A model generated the notes under the pieces. It did not search any database, was not told where the DNA came from, and saw only the letters and a list, made by a program, of their open reading frames with translations. From Planctomycetota bacterium (GTDB taxonomy: Bacteria > Planctomycetota > Planctomycetia > Gemmatales > Gemmataceae), in NCBI GenBank assembly GCA_016872595.1, contig VGZJ01000013.1, positions 1-45,095 of the forward strand: DNA of 45,095 nucleotides, read 5' to 3'. Made by a program: the position numbers and the translations under genes. Positions 6,409 through 43,659 of the stretch are shown here, piece by piece. Position 1 is the first letter of the stretch, and every line of letters begins with the position of its first letter.

Positions 6409-7611
6409 ATGCTCGAAGTTGCCGAGGCGCTGGCGACCGTTCTTTCTCACACCAAGCCACTCAAGACCGAGGTTGCCGCGCTCACCACGGCGGCGCTCGG
6501 GCAGGTGCTCGCGGTCGATATTCTCGCGGACCTCGATTCGCCGCCGTTCGCGAAGGTGCTGCGCGACGGGTACGCGGTGCGCGCCGCCGATTGCGCCGCG
6601 CCCGGCGCGCCGCTGAAGGTCATCGAGGAGGTGCCCGCGGGGAAGGTGCCGACCAAGCCGGTCGGGGCCGGCGACGCGACACGCATCTTCACCGGCGCGC
6701 CCATTCCCGACGGCGCGGACGCCGTCGTGATGCAAGAGGACACGCGGCGCGCCGGGGATGTGGTCACGATCACCGACAGCGCCGTAAAACCGCGGCAGTG
6801 GGTGTTCGCTCAGGGCACCGAGATGAAGGCCGGGGCCGTCGTGCTGAAGGCCGGCACGCCCATCAACCCGGCCGCGTTCGGCGTACTCGCCAGCGTCGGG
6901 AAGACCGCGGTGCCGGCGTTCCCGTTCCCGCGCGTCGGCGTCATCGCCACCGGCGACGAACTGATCGAAGCCAACATGAAGCCCAAGCCGGGGCAGATCC
7001 GCAACTCCAACGGCCCCATGCTCACCGCGCTCACCGTGCGCGGCGGCGGGCTGCCGCGCTACCTCGGCATCGCGCGCGACGACCGCGCCATCACGCGCTC
7101 GCTGGTCGCGGAGGGGTTGGAGGTGTCCGACGTGGTGCTGCTGTGCGGCGGCGTGTCGGTGGGCGATTACGACCTCGTGCCGCAAGTGCTGACCGACCTC
7201 GGCGTGACGACGCACTTCCGCCAAGTGCTCGTGAAACCGGGCAAGCCGCTGCTGTTCGGGACGGGGCCGAAGGGCCAGCTCGTGTTCGGCTTGCCGGGCA
7301 ACCCGGCCAGCTCGTTCGTCGGGTTCGAACTGTTCGTGCGCCCCGCGATCCGCATCTTGGGTGGACACGCGGAGCCGGGTCCGCGCACAATCACGCTGCC
7401 GACGGCGGAGGGCATCGCCGAGAGCAACGACCGGCCGACGTACCGGCCGGCGCAGTTGGTGCAGGGCGCGACGGGTTGGACCGTGCGCATTTTGCCGTGG
7501 GGCGGCGCGCCGGACCTCGCCGGCCTGCAACCGGCCGACGCGCTGGTCGCGCTGCCCGCCGGCGACACCCGCGCCGACCCCGGCACGCCCGTAAGTGTCG
7601 TGTTGCTGTGA
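6409..7611 (+). CDS. moeA: Molybdopterin molybdenumtransferase MoeA
   Basis: This inserts molybdate into adenylylated molybdopterin, the last common step of molybdenum cofactor synthesis, in the cytoplasm. The sequence runs through the family's marks: LDSPPFAKVLRDGYAV, then FTGAPIPDGADAVVMQED, VGVIATGDEL, IRNSNGPML, LLCGGVSVGDYD, KPGKPLLFG and GLPGNPASSFVGFELFV, followed by a C-terminal beta domain. The ATG at 6409 begins MLEVAEALA and gives 400 residues, the usual length; an in-frame TTG at 6370 would add 13 residues that do not look like the family. No other cofactor gene is next to it. The stop is followed after two bases by a palindromic repeat. Confidence 0.95.
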   Translation: MLEVAEALATVLSHTKPLKTEVAALTTAALGQVLAVDILADLDSPPFAKVLRDGYAVRAADCAAPGAPLKVIEEVPAGKVPTKPVGAGDATRIFTGAPIPDGADAVVMQEDTRRAGDVVTITDSAVKPRQWVFAQGTEMKAGAVVLKAGTPINPAAFGVLASVGKTAVPAFPFPRVGVIATGDELIEANMKPKPGQIRNSNGPMLTALTVRGGGLPRYLGIARDDRAITRSLVAEGLEVSDVVLLCGGVSVGDYDLVPQVLTDLGVTTHFRQVLVKPGKPLLFGTGPKGQLVFGLPGNPASSFVGFELFVRPAIRILGGHAEPGPRTITLPTAEGIAESNDRPTYRPAQLVQGATGWTVRILPWGGAPDLAGLQPADALVALPAGDTRADPGTPVSVVLL

Positions 7612-7613
7612 AC

Positions 7614-7725
7614 ATTAGCCGCACGATGAACACAGACAAAGGCACGATCAGAACAGAAGACAAAGTGAATTGAACTCTGCCTTCTGCCTTGATCGTGTCT
7701 TGTCGGCGTTGATCGTGCGGCTAAT
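7614..7725. repeat. Bipartite palindromic repeat, GCACGAT family, copy 2
   Basis: The left arm begins ATTAGCCGCACGAT and continues with AGACAAAGGCACGATC. The right arm returns as GATCGTGTCTTGTCGG and ends GATCGTGCGGCTAAT, so both ends match over about 45 bases with scattered mismatches. The A/T-richer centre is about 15 bases. The first arm shares the CCGCACGAT and GGCACGAT blocks with the copy at 5668-5783. It lies between the moeA stop and the strong ribosome site of lnt, and may end moeA transcripts or be a passive element. Confidence 0.85.
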
Positions 7726-7755
7726 CCCGGCTTTGCCTCGTCGGAAGGAGTCCGC

Positions 7756-9573
7756 GTGAAGGCTCGCGTGTTTGCGCCCGCGGTCGCGTCGGGCGCGCTG
7801 CTGTGGGCGGCGTTCTTCCCGCTGAACCTCGGGCCGGTGGCGTTCGTCGCGCTCGTGCCGTGGGTGGCGCTGGTGCGCGCGCCGGTGTCGAACCGGCGGC
7901 GGTACCTCGCGGCCTACGCCGGCGGCGTCACCTTCTTCGCGCTCGCCACCAACTGGGTGCGCGTCGCGCACCCCATGATGTACCTGTCGTGGCTCGGTCT
8001 CGCGGTGTTGGTCCCGGTGTTCTGGCTGGGCGCGCTCGCGCTGCTGCGCAAGCTCGACGCGCTCAAGGTGCCGCTAGCGGTCGCGGTGCCGGTGGCATGG
8101 GTCGCGCTCGAGTACTGCCGGATGCACTTCCCCACCGGCTTCACGTTTATGAAGCCGCTTGGCGCGTACCAGATGATCGGCTTCGGCTGGTACTTCCTCG
8201 GCTACACCCAACACGAGTTCGTCGCGCTCATCCAAATCGCCGACCTCGGCGGTGTGTACGCCGTGTCGTTCGTTGTCGCCGCGGTGAACGGCGCGCTGGC
8301 GGACGTGCTGTTGCGCGAGGCGCGCGTGCGGCGCGTGTTGGGGTGGGAAAGGCAACCTACCTCCCTCGGCCCCCCCTCCCTGAAGGGAGGGGGGGAGGAA
8401 GACCTTACGAGCTCGCAAAGGTCCAACGTCGCGCAAGAGGCTTCGCGCGAATGCTCCCCCTTCCCTTCAGGGAAGGGGGTTGGGGGGTTAGGTTTCGCCC
8501 TCGCCCTCCTCGTCGCCAGTATCGCCTACGGCACCTCGCGCCTGAATCACGCGCCGTTCGCCGCGGGGCCGATGGTGGCGGCGATTCAGGGGAGCGTGTC
8601 GCAGGGCGAGAAAATGGCGCGCGGCGGCGGGCTGCGCGAACAGTACGCGCGCGCCTTCGGGCTGGCGTACCAACAGAACCCGCGCCCGGACCTAATCGTC
8701 TGGCCGGAGACGTGCTATTGGGAGGACTGGGTCGAGGTCGCTCCGGGGGCGAGCACCGGGGGCATGACCGACACGCAGCGCGCCGCGCTGGACGAAGCCG
8801 ACAAGCAGTTCCGCCGCCTCTGGGATGTGCCGATCCTGTTCGGTATCAGTGGGCACACGTGGGACGGCACGCGCTACACGAAGGGCAACACGGCGCTGCT
8901 CGTCGGGCCGCACCTGCGCGCCCCGGTGCGCTACGACAAAATGCACCTCGTGCCGTTCGGCGAGTACGTGCCGCTGGGCGACGTGCTGCCGTTCATGCAG
9001 TGGTTCACGCCCTACGAAAAGGGCTACGAGTGTACGCCGGGCGAAGCGTGGACGCGGTTCCCGTTGGTCGCCAAGGACGGCCGCGCGTTCACCTTCGGGT
9101 GCCTCATCTGCTACGAGGACTCCGACCCGTACCTCGCGCGGCAGTACGTCGCGCGCGACCCGGTCAGCTTCCTCGTGAACACCTCCAACGACGGCTGGTT
9201 CGACGGCACCGAGGAGCACGAGCAGCACCTCGCGATCTGCCGGTTCCGCGCGGTCGAGGCGCGCCGCGCGGTCGTGCGCGCGGTGAACATGGGCGTGAGC
9301 GCGGTCGTCGATTCCGACGGGCGCGTGGTCGCGCTCCCGCGGCCGGTGCGCGTCGAGGGCCGGCGCGTCACCCTCGGCGACTACCCGCTCGAAAGCTGGC
9401 GCGCCGCGAAGAAGGTCGAGGGCATCGTGTTGGTGGCGGTACCGCTCGACGACCGCAGTTCGTGGTACGCGCGGTTCGGCGACTGGCTCCCGGCGCTGTG
9501 CTGGGCCGCGGCGCTCGCCGCGGTGGTGGCGGCAAGGTTGGTTCGTGGCGAGCGGGGGGCGTCAGCCCCCTGA
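7756..9573 (+). CDS. lnt: Apolipoprotein N-acyltransferase
   Basis: This adds the third acyl chain to the N-terminal cysteine of lipoproteins at the inner membrane. The GTG start has GGAAGGAG five bases upstream. N-terminal hydrophobic helices come first (about 1-190), then a periplasmic nitrilase-like domain with the Glu-Lys-Cys triad: IVWPETCYWED (Glu), RYDKMHLVPFGEYVP (Lys) and FGCLICYEDSDP (Cys), then VNTSNDGWFDGT and a last helix. At 605 residues it is longer than usual (about 500-540). The excess is largely residues about 199-247, encoded by a palindromic repeat (8351-8495) inserted in frame between membrane segments. The last residues (GERGASAP) and the stop come from a second repeat. 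It leads a run of same-strand genes to dxs. Confidence 0.93.
   Translation: MKARVFAPAVASGALLWAAFFPLNLGPVAFVALVPWVALVRAPVSNRRRYLAAYAGGVTFFALATNWVRVAHPMMYLSWLGLAVLVPVFWLGALALLRKLDALKVPLAVAVPVAWVALEYCRMHFPTGFTFMKPLGAYQMIGFGWYFLGYTQHEFVALIQIADLGGVYAVSFVVAAVNGALADVLLREARVRRVLGWERQPTSLGPPSLKGGGEEDLTSSQRSNVAQEASRECSPFPSGKGVGGLGFALALLVASIAYGTSRLNHAPFAAGPMVAAIQGSVSQGEKMARGGGLREQYARAFGLAYQQNPRPDLIVWPETCYWEDWVEVAPGASTGGMTDTQRAALDEADKQFRRLWDVPILFGISGHTWDGTRYTKGNTALLVGPHLRAPVRYDKMHLVPFGEYVPLGDVLPFMQWFTPYEKGYECTPGEAWTRFPLVAKDGRAFTFGCLICYEDSDPYLARQYVARDPVSFLVNTSNDGWFDGTEEHEQHLAICRFRAVEARRAVVRAVNMGVSAVVDSDGRVVALPRPVRVEGRRVTLGDYPLESWRAAKKVEGIVLVAVPLDDRSSWYARFGDWLPALCWAAALAAVVAARLVRGERGASAP
8351..8495. repeat. 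CCTAACCCCCC-family palindromic element inside lnt (in frame)
   Basis: The left arm has ACCTCCCTCGG followed by the hairpin CCCTCCCTGAAGGGAGGG. The right arm has CTTCCCTTCAGGGAAG and ends GGGGGGTTAGGTTT. The reverse complement of the right arm matches the left arm and the arms of two other copies (10677-10788 and 43513-43659). The spacer is about 55 bases. The whole element is free of stops in the lnt frame and adds about 48 residues (…SLKGGGEE… to …SPFPSGKGVGG). Confidence 0.9.
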
Positions 9574-9622
9574 ATCGTATTGCGCGCGAAAGAGAACAGG
9601 GGGCTAACGCCCCCCGCTCGCC
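9547..9622. repeat. GGCGAGCGGGGGGCGT palindromic element at the lnt 3' end
   Basis: Left arm (9547-9572) is GGCGAGCGGGGGGCGTCAG plus CCCCCTG; the right arm (9597-9622) is its reverse complement with two changes. Each arm is also a small hairpin (GGGGGC, four-base loop, GCCCCC). The lnt stop TGA (9571-9573) lies at the end of the left arm, so the arm encodes the protein's last residues. A single arm of the same family lies inside the polyprenyl synthase gene at 13314. Confidence 0.9.
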
Positions 9623-9633
9623 AAGACCGAGGC

Positions 9634-9640
9634 ACGGAGG
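9634..9640 (+). promoter_or_regulatory. Ribosome binding site before a putative ATT start
   Basis: ACGGAGG lies six bases before an ATT codon (9647) that opens the frame of the following membrane protein. No ATG, GTG or TTG occurs in that frame between the upstream stop at 9605 and a TTG at 9713, so this site decides the start choice. Confidence 0.5.
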
Positions 9641-9646
9641 CCCGCC

Positions 9647-11134
9647 ATTCCACTCGCAACGCTCTTTTCCCCGTGGCTCGCGCCGCTGCTCATCGCGGCG
9701 TGGTGCGCCTTCTTGTTCCTGTACGGGTTGGACGCCGGGCCACTGTACCGCACCGAGGCGCTGCGCGCGATCATTGGGCGCGAGTGTCTGCACGGGCACT
9801 GGCTGTACCCGGTGCTGTACGGCGAACCGTTCCTGACGAAGCCTCCCGGCCACTACGCCGCCATTGGGTTGTGCAGCGTGCCCTTCGGCGACGTGAGCGC
9901 CGCGACCGCGCGCCTGCCCTCGGTGTTCGCCGCGACACTCGCCGTCGTGCTCGTGTACGGCACGTTCCGCCGCGTACTCGGCGAACGGCCGGCGCTGGTG
10001 ATGGCACTGCTGCTGCCGTGTTCGGTGCTGTGGCTCGACAAGGTGCCGAGCGCGGAAATCGACATGACGCTCGTCGGGTGGGTGACGGCGGCGCTGGTGC
10101 TGTTCCACCGCGCACTCGAAAGCGAACGGCGCGCGCCGTACATGATCGGCGCGCTGCTGTGCGTCGCGGGCGGCACGCTGACCAAGTGGACCGCGCCGGC
10201 GTTCTTCTACCTGACTGCGGTTCCGCTGCTGGCGTGGCGCGGGCAGTTGCGCCTCTTGAGCGGACGCGCGCACCTCGTCGCGGTGGGCGTCGCGGGCGCG
10301 GCGTGCGCGCTGTGGGCGCTCGCCGTCGTGCAGCAGGTGGGCTGGGACGCGCTCTCCGAAACGATCCGCAAAGAGGCCGCGTACCGCTTCGCGCCGAAGG
10401 CGAGCAAGGGCTACCCGTGGGCCGAACTCGCGACGTACCCGCTCGCGGTGTTCGCGGCGCACCTGCCGGTATCGGCGTTCGCGCTGCTCACCTTCCGGCG
10501 CGCGTTCTGGGCGCAGTGGGACGCGCGCGGCAAGTTGCTCCTGCAACTGCTCCACTGCTGGACGTGGCCGAACCTGCTGTTCTGGACGCTCGTGCCCAAC
10601 CACAACGTGCGCTACGCGCTCCCCATGAGCGCCGGGCTGATGGGCTTGGGTGTGATGGGGCTGTGGGGCTGGTGGAAGAAACCTAACCCCCCAACCCCCT
10701 TCCCTAGGAGGGAAGGGGGAGAAAGGCCAAGACCAGACTCTGACTCCCCCTTCCCTCCTAGGGAAGGGGGTTGGGGGGTTCGGTTCTTCCTTCTCTTCCT
10801 CCTCGGTTGGTTCGTCGTCAAAGTCGCGTTCGTCGAGTACGTCGTCCCCGCGCGAACGGCGAACCGCAACGCCGCCGACACCGGGGCGGAGTTGCGCGCG
10901 CGCGTGCCGCCCGGCGCGCCGGTGTACGTCTTCAAGTTGAAGGACGAGGGCGTGACGTTCTACTACGCGCGGCCCGCGGTGAAGTGCGCCGACACGCGCG
11001 CGCTGCCGAGCGGCGCGTACGCGCTCTTGATCCGCCAAGAGTGGGAAGATCGCACTGCGTTCGGCCCGCTCGAACTGCTACACTGCATGACCGATCAGCA
11101 GGGCGACCCAATATACCTCGTCCAGAAACCATGA
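9647..11134 (+). CDS. PMT/ArnT-like membrane glycosyltransferase (GT-C fold)
   Basis: This probably moves a sugar from a polyprenyl-phosphate donor to a lipid or protein on the outer face of the inner membrane. After a first hydrophobic helix comes the periplasmic loop typical of the family: LYRTEALRAIIGRECLHG, then YGEPFLTKPPGHY; the acidic residue in RTEA fits the catalytic position. About ten more helices follow, then a soluble tail (YVFKLKDEGVTFYYARP). The start is taken as ATT at 9647, because a good ribosome site precedes it and the first helix (PWLAPLLIAAWCAFLFLYG) needs it; TTG at 9713 would cut into that helix. An in-frame palindromic repeat (10677-10788) adds about 38 residues before the last helix. 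The stop overlaps the xseA start (ATGA). The acceptor is unknown. Confidence 0.8.
   Translation: MPLATLFSPWLAPLLIAAWCAFLFLYGLDAGPLYRTEALRAIIGRECLHGHWLYPVLYGEPFLTKPPGHYAAIGLCSVPFGDVSAATARLPSVFAATLAVVLVYGTFRRVLGERPALVMALLLPCSVLWLDKVPSAEIDMTLVGWVTAALVLFHRALESERRAPYMIGALLCVAGGTLTKWTAPAFFYLTAVPLLAWRGQLRLLSGRAHLVAVGVAGAACALWALAVVQQVGWDALSETIRKEAAYRFAPKASKGYPWAELATYPLAVFAAHLPVSAFALLTFRRAFWAQWDARGKLLLQLLHCWTWPNLLFWTLVPNHNVRYALPMSAGLMGLGVMGLWGWWKKPNPPTPFPRREGGERPRPDSDSPFPPREGGWGVRFFLLFLLGWFVVKVAFVEYVVPARTANRNAADTGAELRARVPPGAPVYVFKLKDEGVTFYYARPAVKCADTRALPSGAYALLIRQEWEDRTAFGPLELLHCMTDQQGDPIYLVQKP
10677..10788. repeat. CCTAACCCCCC-family palindromic element inside the glycosyltransferase (in frame)
   Basis: The left arm (10677-10721) starts AAGAAACCTAACCCCCCAAC and contains the hairpin CTTCCCTAGGAGGGAAG. 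The right arm (10743-10788) is its reverse complement with few changes (ends GGGGTTCGGTTCTT). The spacer is about 21 bases. It has no stop in the host frame and is translated as PNPPTPFPRREGG, a short spacer, then PFPPREGGWGV. Confidence 0.92.
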
Positions 11135-12381
11135 ACGCTGCTCCCGCTGCCCCGCAACCGCTCTCCGTGTCGCAGCTCACGGCGCAGGTCCGCGCGTCGG
11201 TCGAAGGGGCGTTCCCCTCGGTGTGGGTCGCGGGCGAGGTGTCCAACTTCACGCGTGCGGCCAGCGGGCACTGGTACTTCACCCTCAAAGACGCCGCGGC
11301 GCAAATCAAGACGGTCGCGTTCCGCGGCATCAACCTGCGCCTGCGCTTCGACCTCAAGAACGGCATGGAGATCGTCGCCCGCGGCCGGCTGACCGTGTTC
11401 GAGCCGAAGGGCGAGTACCAGTTCGTCGTCGAGGAGCTTCAGCCGAAGGGCGTGGGGGCCGCGGAGCTGGCCCTGCGCGAGCTGAAGGAGCGCCTGCTGG
11501 CGAAGGGGTACTTCGGCAAGGACCGCAAGCGCCCGTTGCCGCGCCCGCCGGCGCGCGTCGGGCTGATCGCCAGCGCCACCGGCGCGGCCGTGCGCGACAT
11601 GATCGAGGTGTTCGCGCAGCGGTGGCCGTTCACGGAAGTGATCGTGCGGCCGACGCGCGTGCAGGGCGAAGGCTCCGCGGCCGACGTCGCCCACGCGCTC
11701 AAACAACTCAACTGGCTGCACCGCAACAACAAGCTCGCGTTCGACGCCATCGTGCTCGGGCGCGGCGGCGGCAGCGCCGAAGACCTGTGGGCGTTCAACG
11801 AGGAAGTCGTCGCGGACGCGGTGTACGCCTCGCAGGTGCCGGTGATCTCCGCGGTCGGGCACGAAACCGACGTGACCGTGGCCGACCTCGTGGCCGACCA
11901 CCGCGCGGAGACGCCGACCGCGGCCGTGGTCGCGCTGACCCCCGACCGGCGCGAGGTGCTGGCGGCGCTCGGCACGCTGGGCGAACGCATGGCCGACGCC
12001 GCGGCGCGGCGGGTGCGGCTGCTGCGCCAGCGGCTCGACCAGCTCGCGGCGCGGCCCGCGCTGCGCCGCCCGCTCCAGCGCGTCCGCGACATCGAACAGC
12101 GGTTGGACGACACCGCGACCCGGCTGGCCCGCGCCGTGCGCCAGCGGCTCGTTCGCGCCTCACAAGAACTGACCGACGTTTCGGCCCGGCTCGAGGCTCT
12201 CAGCCCCTTGAAGGTGCTCGCGCGGGGCTATAGTTTGACGCTCACGAAGGACGGGGACCTCGTTCGCGACCCCGGCACCCTGCGCCCCGGCGACCTGCTG
12301 CTCACGCACGTCGCCCGCGGCTCGATCCGCTCGCTCGTCACGGAGGCGACGCGCGCGGCCGACGACCGCCCGGCCGGGTGA
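11131..12381 (+). CDS. xseA: Exodeoxyribonuclease VII large subunit
   Basis: This is the catalytic subunit of exonuclease VII, which degrades single-stranded DNA to oligonucleotides in the cytoplasm. At 416 residues it has the N-terminal OB fold (LSVSQLTAQVRASVEGAFP, VWVAGEVSNFTRAASGHWYF, TLKDAAAQIKTVAF), the catalytic domain (PRPPARVGLIASATGAAVRD, VLGRGGGSAEDLWAFNEE, VISAVGHETDVTVADLVAD), a long coiled-coil region from about 270, and the C-terminal LARGYSLTL. The ATG overlaps the upstream stop, which suggests coupled translation. xseB follows after 36 bases. Confidence 0.96.
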   Translation: MNAAPAAPQPLSVSQLTAQVRASVEGAFPSVWVAGEVSNFTRAASGHWYFTLKDAAAQIKTVAFRGINLRLRFDLKNGMEIVARGRLTVFEPKGEYQFVVEELQPKGVGAAELALRELKERLLAKGYFGKDRKRPLPRPPARVGLIASATGAAVRDMIEVFAQRWPFTEVIVRPTRVQGEGSAADVAHALKQLNWLHRNNKLAFDAIVLGRGGGSAEDLWAFNEEVVADAVYASQVPVISAVGHETDVTVADLVADHRAETPTAAVVALTPDRREVLAALGTLGERMADAAARRVRLLRQRLDQLAARPALRRPLQRVRDIEQRLDDTATRLARAVRQRLVRASQELTDVSARLEALSPLKVLARGYSLTLTKDGDLVRDPGTLRPGDLLLTHVARGSIRSLVTEATRAADDRPAG

Positions 12382-43512: not shown

Positions 43513-43659
43513 AAGAACCTAATCCCCCGGCCCCCTTCCCTAGGAGGGAAGGGGGAGCACGCGCGCCGAACTTTCCGCGCGCCGGGTTGGTGTCCGGTTC
43601 TCCAATCGCGAATCCACCCCTTCCCTCCTCGGGAAAGGGGTCGGGGGGTTAGGTTTCTT
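43513..43659. repeat. CCTAACCCCCC-family palindromic element between genes
   Basis: The left arm AAGAACCTAATCCCCCGGC, with the hairpin CTTCCCTAGGAGGGAAG, is mirrored by the right arm ending GGGGGGTTAGGTTTCTT. The spacer is about 56 bases. It is the third copy of the family that also sits inside lnt and the glycosyltransferase. The SGNH hydrolase stop (TAA on the minus strand) overlaps its edge. Confidence 0.9.

Follow-up and report, generated by a model that had tools for sequence, protein, structure and literature searches.

The lnt locus and its palindromic element

The window (the whole stretch of 45,095 bases that we analysed) contains a gene for apolipoprotein N-acyltransferase, lnt, with a palindromic element inside its coding region (Table 1). 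The earlier note had described this element as a bipartite palindrome, and the description holds: the two 24-nt hairpins are 92% complementary to each other, and inverted tails, read from the sequence as AACCTA.. and ..TAGGTT, enclose both of them. Two hairpins in inverted orientation form a larger palindrome, as in REPINs, and the tails are terminal inverted repeats such as MITEs have. Folded as RNA, the element reaches -89.7 kcal/mol, compared with -64.6 +/- 4.3 for shuffled sequences (z = -5.9), and none of 200 shuffles was as stable. A comparison of the region 7500-11200 with Rfam gave 31 matches with E <= 1, mostly to microRNA models and none reaching its gathering score (the best, with E = 6.7e-8, was also below it). 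We take these as generic hairpin matches and have rejected identity with an Rfam family.

Table 1. Features of the window discussed in the text
Feature	Position	Strand	Basis or remark
lnt, apolipoprotein N-acyltransferase, host gene	7756-9573	+	GTG start assumed; Pfam LNT_N and CN_hydrolase
Double-hairpin palindromic element	8351-8495		inverted ends AACCT..AGGTT at 8354-8494
Left hairpin CCCCCCTCCCTGAAGGGAGGGGGG	8371-8394		inverted-repeat search
Right hairpin CCCCCTTCCCTTCAGGGAAGGGGG	8456-8479		inverted-repeat search
Second copy	10682-10783		in frame in downstream PMT_2-type glycosyltransferase gene (9713-11134)
Third copy	43518-43653		intergenic, both neighbouring genes on the minus strand

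The reading frame of lnt (605 aa) continues uninterrupted through the 145 bases of the element, which lie in frame and span approximately residues 200-246. The product matches the Pfam families LNT_N (2.3e-26) and CN_hydrolase (1.6e-19), and E318, K395 and C452, taken to be the catalytic triad as in E. coli Lnt, are invariant in 31 aligned proteins. Judged by its sequence, the gene with its insert is apparently intact; the insert is predicted to be translated as a floppy loop, and the protein bearing it is presumably produced and functional. The argument of the earlier note that the insert must be tolerated presumes that Lnt is essential in this bacterium. Of the earlier statement that the palindrome has no in-frame stop and adds about 48 residues, the first part is correct and the second has to be modified. 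The insert has 47 codons (8354-8494), but the loop that holds it is 78 aa long and the median over 81 genomes is 46 aa, which makes a net gain of about 32 aa.

The position of the insert also differs from the one first proposed, that is, between the helical part and the catalytic domain. In the AlphaFold model, the insert is flanked by the helices 167-195 and 240-263, and pLDDT falls to 49-53 in the blocks covering residues 201-240, compared with 87-98 in 151-200 and 92-98 in 241-280 (it also drops to 55-73 in catalytic-domain blocks near 391-430). This places the insert, modelled with low confidence, in a loop that joins two helices of the membrane part, one helix ahead of the catalytic domain. 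This is the TM6-TM7 loop, presumably on the cytoplasmic side if the topology is that of E. coli Lnt.

Two more copies in the window, one of them between genes, had been reported before, and both are there (Table 1); the other one lies in frame in the gene next to lnt. The window also contains further palindromes. A different palindromic repeat at 9543-9626 overlaps the last codons and the stop codon of lnt and has 85 matches in the same genome (both strands counted); a palindrome that resembles it by eye fills the TilS loop of two other genomes (G026 and G092). A third palindrome lies just upstream of lnt (7614-7725), with 26-nt arms that are 88% complementary.

A high-copy repeat family

The genome from which the window comes (G000) is a draft of 6.8 Mb in 590 contigs. 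A BLAST search of it with the element, in which 40 of 101 candidates were scored, gave at least 122 matches over both strands. With a half-element pattern allowing up to two mismatches we found 141 half-sites in this genome and none with the reversed pattern as a control. The half-site is present in 17 of the 19 genomes of the genus, with 0 to 184 occurrences per genome (reversed pattern: 0 to 4). Many full copies follow a rough consensus, namely AACCTA(A/C)CCCCCCGGCCCCC(T/C)TCCCT, a loop, the partner arm, a variable spacer and then the mirror image; both hairpins can still be recognised in divergent copies. The insert in lnt is thus confirmed as one member of a high-copy palindromic repeat family.

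Copies in reading frame

How many copies lie inside genes was determined in a sample of 38 contigs or contig parts (1,444,031 bases), consisting of the window and of others picked by number: C4-C9, C11 and C14-C43, with C4, C11 and C14-C18 in part, and with C1-C3, C10, C12 and all later contigs outside the sample. A hairpin search allowing three mismatches found 48 hairpins, compared with 4-6 in each of five shuffles, and these were grouped into 27 elements, after dropping one-hairpin clusters without a tail. This excess speaks against chance low-complexity sequence. A misassembly of the lnt locus, for which the many contigs of the draft might be held responsible, was rejected because this loop also holds similar inserts in genomes that were assembled independently (L083, and L086 from a genome of two contigs); we find either of these two explanations hardly credible.

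In-frame status was called from the codon bias on both flanks. A count of copies in genes against other copies, as suggested in the earlier note, gives 13 of the 27 elements in frame within genes, the other 14 not being called so; since the window had been chosen for its element, we also give the count without it, which is 11 of 24. Like the palindromic elements of Rickettsia (RPEs), the repeat is found in frame within conserved genes.

Phase and length could be compared for the 21 elements that have both tails (the remaining 6 of the 27 were excluded); note that all tests on elements ignore shared descent. Nine of the 11 two-tailed in-frame copies are read in a common codon phase (PTPPAPLPxGRGE...GGVG) and two are exceptions. 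All 11 in-frame copies are free of stops in frame 0 of either strand, as are 4 of the 10 others (Fisher p = 0.004; 9/9 and 4/9 with the window excluded, p = 0.03). The tail-to-tail length is 2 modulo 3 in 9/11 in-frame and 3/10 other copies (p = 0.03; 8/9 and 3/9 with the window excluded, p = 0.05), and if the ends AA..TT are counted in, the length of most in-frame copies is a multiple of three. Openness on the antisense strand, which largely follows from the palindrome and its length, says little about whether the element has been selected. Furthermore, the remaining two frames usually contain stops, so that the uniform phase is explained once reading through is required. Since the element is an inverted repeat, it gives much the same peptide, rich in proline and glycine (PTPPAPLPxGRGE...SPLPxGRGAGGVG), in either orientation.

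Potentially, the repeat could be kept for a role in DNA or RNA, for example as a protein-binding site, as a transcription pause or for mRNA structure and stability, its translation being incidental. The hairpins are very stable, they remain recognisable in divergent copies, and the 14 sampled copies that were not called in frame would fit this explanation as well. On the other hand, such a role would not demand the restriction of phase and length that we see in the in-frame copies, and the same protein loop holds unrelated palindromes in other species, as described below. We therefore consider this explanation rather unlikely.

A larger set was obtained from contigs chosen by BLAST hit. It contains 49 clusters, of which 22 are in frame, 26 are other copies and one lies at an edge. 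The loose pattern that was used here matches shuffled sequence as well (35 matches in a local and 25 in a global shuffle), and for this reason our final counts rest on the sample of 1.44 Mb. In this partly similarity-selected set, 20 of the 22 in-frame copies are in the common phase, again with two exceptions, and a similar peptide is found in all 22, within 21 proteins. For 33 elements of 95-145 bases, partly chosen by similarity to the lnt element, we compared each element with its nearest sequence neighbour, and in 24 of the 33 cases both had the same status, in-gene or other (shuffled mean 16.1, p = 0.013; one of the "other" labels, in C21, was later called in frame by the final rule). We see in this a modest hint that a translatable sub-lineage may exist within the Gemmata family.

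Host proteins

We compared the 21 proteins of the larger set that bear the 22 in-frame copies with Pfam. Matched domains flank the insert on both sides in MutL, two E2 acyltransferases, PutA, a UPF0261 protein and a PIG-L protein. Other inserts are found in membrane proteins (MFS, DcuC, MMPL and Lnt) or past the matched domain (FtsK, a kinase and an ABC protein). Finally, in TilS, an aldehyde dehydrogenase and a P-type ATPase it lies inside or at the edge of the catalytic domain, in the ATPase directly ahead of the GDGINDAP motif; these three cases mean that some inserts are outside any obvious linker. A single reading frame of the MMPL family (L060, on contig C86 of G000) has two in-frame copies, one of which is a single hairpin.

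Palindrome-bearing loops across the Gemmataceae

Is the loop of Lnt special among related bacteria? Lnt was matched in 88 of 95 genomes of the family; 86 were fetched and 90 reading frames aligned, and after removal of four duplicates and five loops shorter than 25 aa, 81 genomes remained. The loop has a median length of 46 aa and varies from 27 to 94 aa. An inverted repeat with a score of at least 15 lies in this loop in 10 of the 81 genomes, and elsewhere between the conserved markers of Lnt there is none in 2,885 overlapping windows or 586 non-overlapping tiles. In a looser first control, 11 of the 81 stop-to-stop reading frames had a palindrome with a score of at least 12 outside the loop. 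In seven of the 81 (L088, L091, L094, L098, L099, L107 and L200) a strong palindrome lies outside the conserved markers, towards the ends of the reading frame, which means that gene ends receive palindromes as well. The loops that bear palindromes are longer than those without. Note that the counts for Lnt, and those for TilS below, ignore the relatedness of the genomes.

According to the earlier note, homologs that lack the insert with precise ends would show an insertion. The alignments do not support precise ends; the loop is variable here, and its baseline residues were seemingly replaced. Nor do the homologs all carry one unrelated sequence of the same length, which the note had named as evidence against an insertion. 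The palindromes in the loop are of several seemingly unrelated kinds: the C-rich Gemmata type, a C-rich one from another genus (G090), and others in G091, G022, G087, G027 and G037. Four of them have many matches in their own genomes, at least 84 in G091, 82 in G087, 88 in G022 and 92 in G090 (both strands counted; 40 candidates scored in each genome). That related bacteria have unrelated palindromic repeats in the same loop of Lnt suggests that a few protein loops may be shared landing sites.

For TilS, we used the best 30 of 88 matching genomes, that is, the more similar ones, of which two incomplete sequences were dropped. Palindromes of several kinds lie in one loop in 12 of the remaining 28 sequences, and none was found elsewhere in TilS (0 of 426 overlapping windows, 0 of 96 tiles). 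TilS of G000 itself also bears the element. Most palindrome-free loops have 24-44 aa, and two long ones (58 and 77 aa) stay under the score. The loop lies between the conserved ends GTGLQGLRGIA and RPLL (L051 on C223 of G000, and L307-L336); it contains several kinds of palindrome and reaches 134 aa between these ends in G010.

A third case might be the PMT-type glycosyltransferase gene adjoining lnt, to judge from a small sample. Among eight aligned orthologs, three (L229, L070 and L080) have no insert at this place, three (L071, L072 and L228) have related inserts, one (L073) has another insert, and L077 is cut short.

The host proteins could have put the peptide to use, as a functional linker or as a segment for interactions, in which case copies would be retained for their value to the host protein. 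It is indeed similar across the in-frame copies, and the loops of Lnt and TilS have been extended again and again. However, a strong palindrome is absent from the Lnt loop of 71 of the 81 genomes, sequence, length and family vary between species, and in G009 and G010, as far as we can infer, only a short remnant was kept. This explanation seems very unlikely to us.

Possible mobility and the search for a mobilising enzyme

We compared two close genomes, G009 and G010, whose long blocks are mostly 88-97% identical (about 94% around lnt). Five places were aligned by hand. In at least three of them G009 has the element and G010 has other sequence, and for one G010 copy we see a partial deletion in G009; a clean insertion present only in G010 was not seen in the five. 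We found no clean empty site and no target duplication in this comparison, but other sequence in the place of a simple join, and because the sequence is replaced, neither a precise join nor a target duplication can be read from these sites. In Lnt of both genomes there is a short PTPEG-like stretch that may be the remnant of a lost copy. The element is presumably mobile, or has been so.

A different explanation is that these loops are linkers that evolve fast, and that template switching or inverted duplication produces the palindromes on the spot, with no mobile elements involved. The replacements that distinguish close genomes would agree with it, as would the wide range of Lnt loop lengths, and for the palindromes of G027, G037 and G042 and of TilS in other genomes it stands. 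Yet the palindromes of G000, G091, G087, G022 and G090 match dozens of places in their own genomes. Local formation would give no genome-wide family, which counts against an origin in place, and as a general explanation it is highly improbable.

Among the matches listed for Y1_Tnp, we scanned 33 loci (5 in G000 and 28 in the genus) up to about 1.5 kb on each side and found the C-rich hairpin at none of them; RAYT was therefore rejected as the mobiliser. In G010, which is a single contig, there are 184 half-sites and no Y1_Tnp match. Mobilisation by a Y1 enzyme acting in trans, or by an enzyme of another kind, is possible. The Y1_Tnp (RAYT-like) genes of G000 have hairpins of their own: L046, L047 and L049 have at least two copies nearby (e.g. 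CCGGCCTCGCAGAGGCCGG around L049), and L045 and L048 have one. G009 has three Y1_Tnp matches, and among the places compared one-sided copies are found only in G009; these are too few for a conclusion.

Comparison with known repeats

The earlier note had likened the insert to the RPEs of Rickettsia, and the likeness bears out: a repeat family has in-frame copies in coding regions. Like the RPEs, the elements are palindromes of about 100-150 bp in frame within conserved genes (PMC10969869, PMC2229807, PMC3767692). In R. conorii, nearly half of the RPEs are reported to lie in ORFs, in frame, and to come from three of ten families (PMC10969869, PMC2229807, PMC3767692); one enzyme bearing an RPE is described as active (PMC2229807). 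The coding palindromic repeats reported from Wolbachia belong with the RPEs to the closest kind. Unlike the RPEs, the repeat described here occurs in another phylum, is a double hairpin very rich in C and G, and shares its host loops with unrelated families.

With REPINs and REP doublets the repeat shares two inverted hairpins, a variable spacer and a high copy number. REPs in Planctomycetes have been reported, and REPs within ORFs have been described, most of them in Opitutus terrae and R. conorii (PMC3733652). Unlike in the REPIN/RAYT system, no hairpin-bearing locus of a Y1 transposase was found among the 33 loci, and about half of the sampled Gemmata copies are in frame, whereas most REPs are intergenic as far as the same source describes them (PMC3733652). 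When the elements were inspected by eye, none had the REPIN tag GTAG or CGTC 5' of the hairpin; the 5' tails are mostly CCTAAC or CCTACC, and a single sub-lineage has GTAG, in its 3' tail.

The Class 3 TnpA-Y1 systems of Planctomycetes and Acidobacteria are similar in their planctomycete hosts and in their atypical hairpins of high copy number; they differ in that we did not recognise the reported CnGA foot by eye and found no link to a Y1 gene (PMC6006769). The Correia elements (NEMIS) of Neisseria, as outlined in PMC2229807, have a 107-bp species with open frames that is abundant in genes, and one of 155 bp, closed by stops in all frames, that is almost entirely intergenic. They are a precedent for coding and non-coding sub-lineages; that outline mentions no shared landing loop (PMC2229807).

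The earlier note knew of no description of in-frame palindromes in planctomycetes, and we likewise found none in our searches, which covered the text of open-access papers; a list of ORFs with REPs accompanies PMC3733652 as a supplement.

Interpretation

The observed copy number, in-frame location, phase, loop position and recurrence are, in our judgement, best read as the result of REPIN- or RPE-like repeats, partly translatable, that persist in genes at permissive loops, and we consider this reading probable. The insert in lnt would then be one of the many copies of a non-autonomous Gemmata palindrome whose hairpins and tails are inverted, like those of REPINs, MITEs and RPEs. Some of the family would be translatable, in the sense that its in-frame copies are free of stops in one frame, whichever strand is read. 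Copies would reach genes by some route and survive wherever a permissive loop or linker of the protein can take them up, with purifying selection presumably acting as the filter on in-gene copies. In related species, unrelated families of palindromes would have entered the TM6-TM7 loop of Lnt on repeated occasions.

The most striking result, which goes beyond the original observation, is the pattern of shared loops. A more far-reaching proposal, which we put forward tentatively and would not yet bet on, is that a few permissive loops of housekeeping proteins of the Gemmataceae (Lnt TM6-TM7, TilS and the PMT-type protein) are shared landing pads which many unrelated palindromic families have entered independently and in frame, and that some of the Gemmata repeats have evolved, as elements, into a stop-free mobile linker that works in either orientation. 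If unrelated repeats do converge on the same loops, these loops would provide a natural map of insertion tolerance in conserved enzymes, one that is directly testable. In-frame palindromes are best known from Rickettsia, which is an obligate intracellular bacterium, and here we see them in a planctomycete with a large genome. With many inserts in genes beside many intergenic copies, the family offers a way to ask how selfish DNA becomes translatable.
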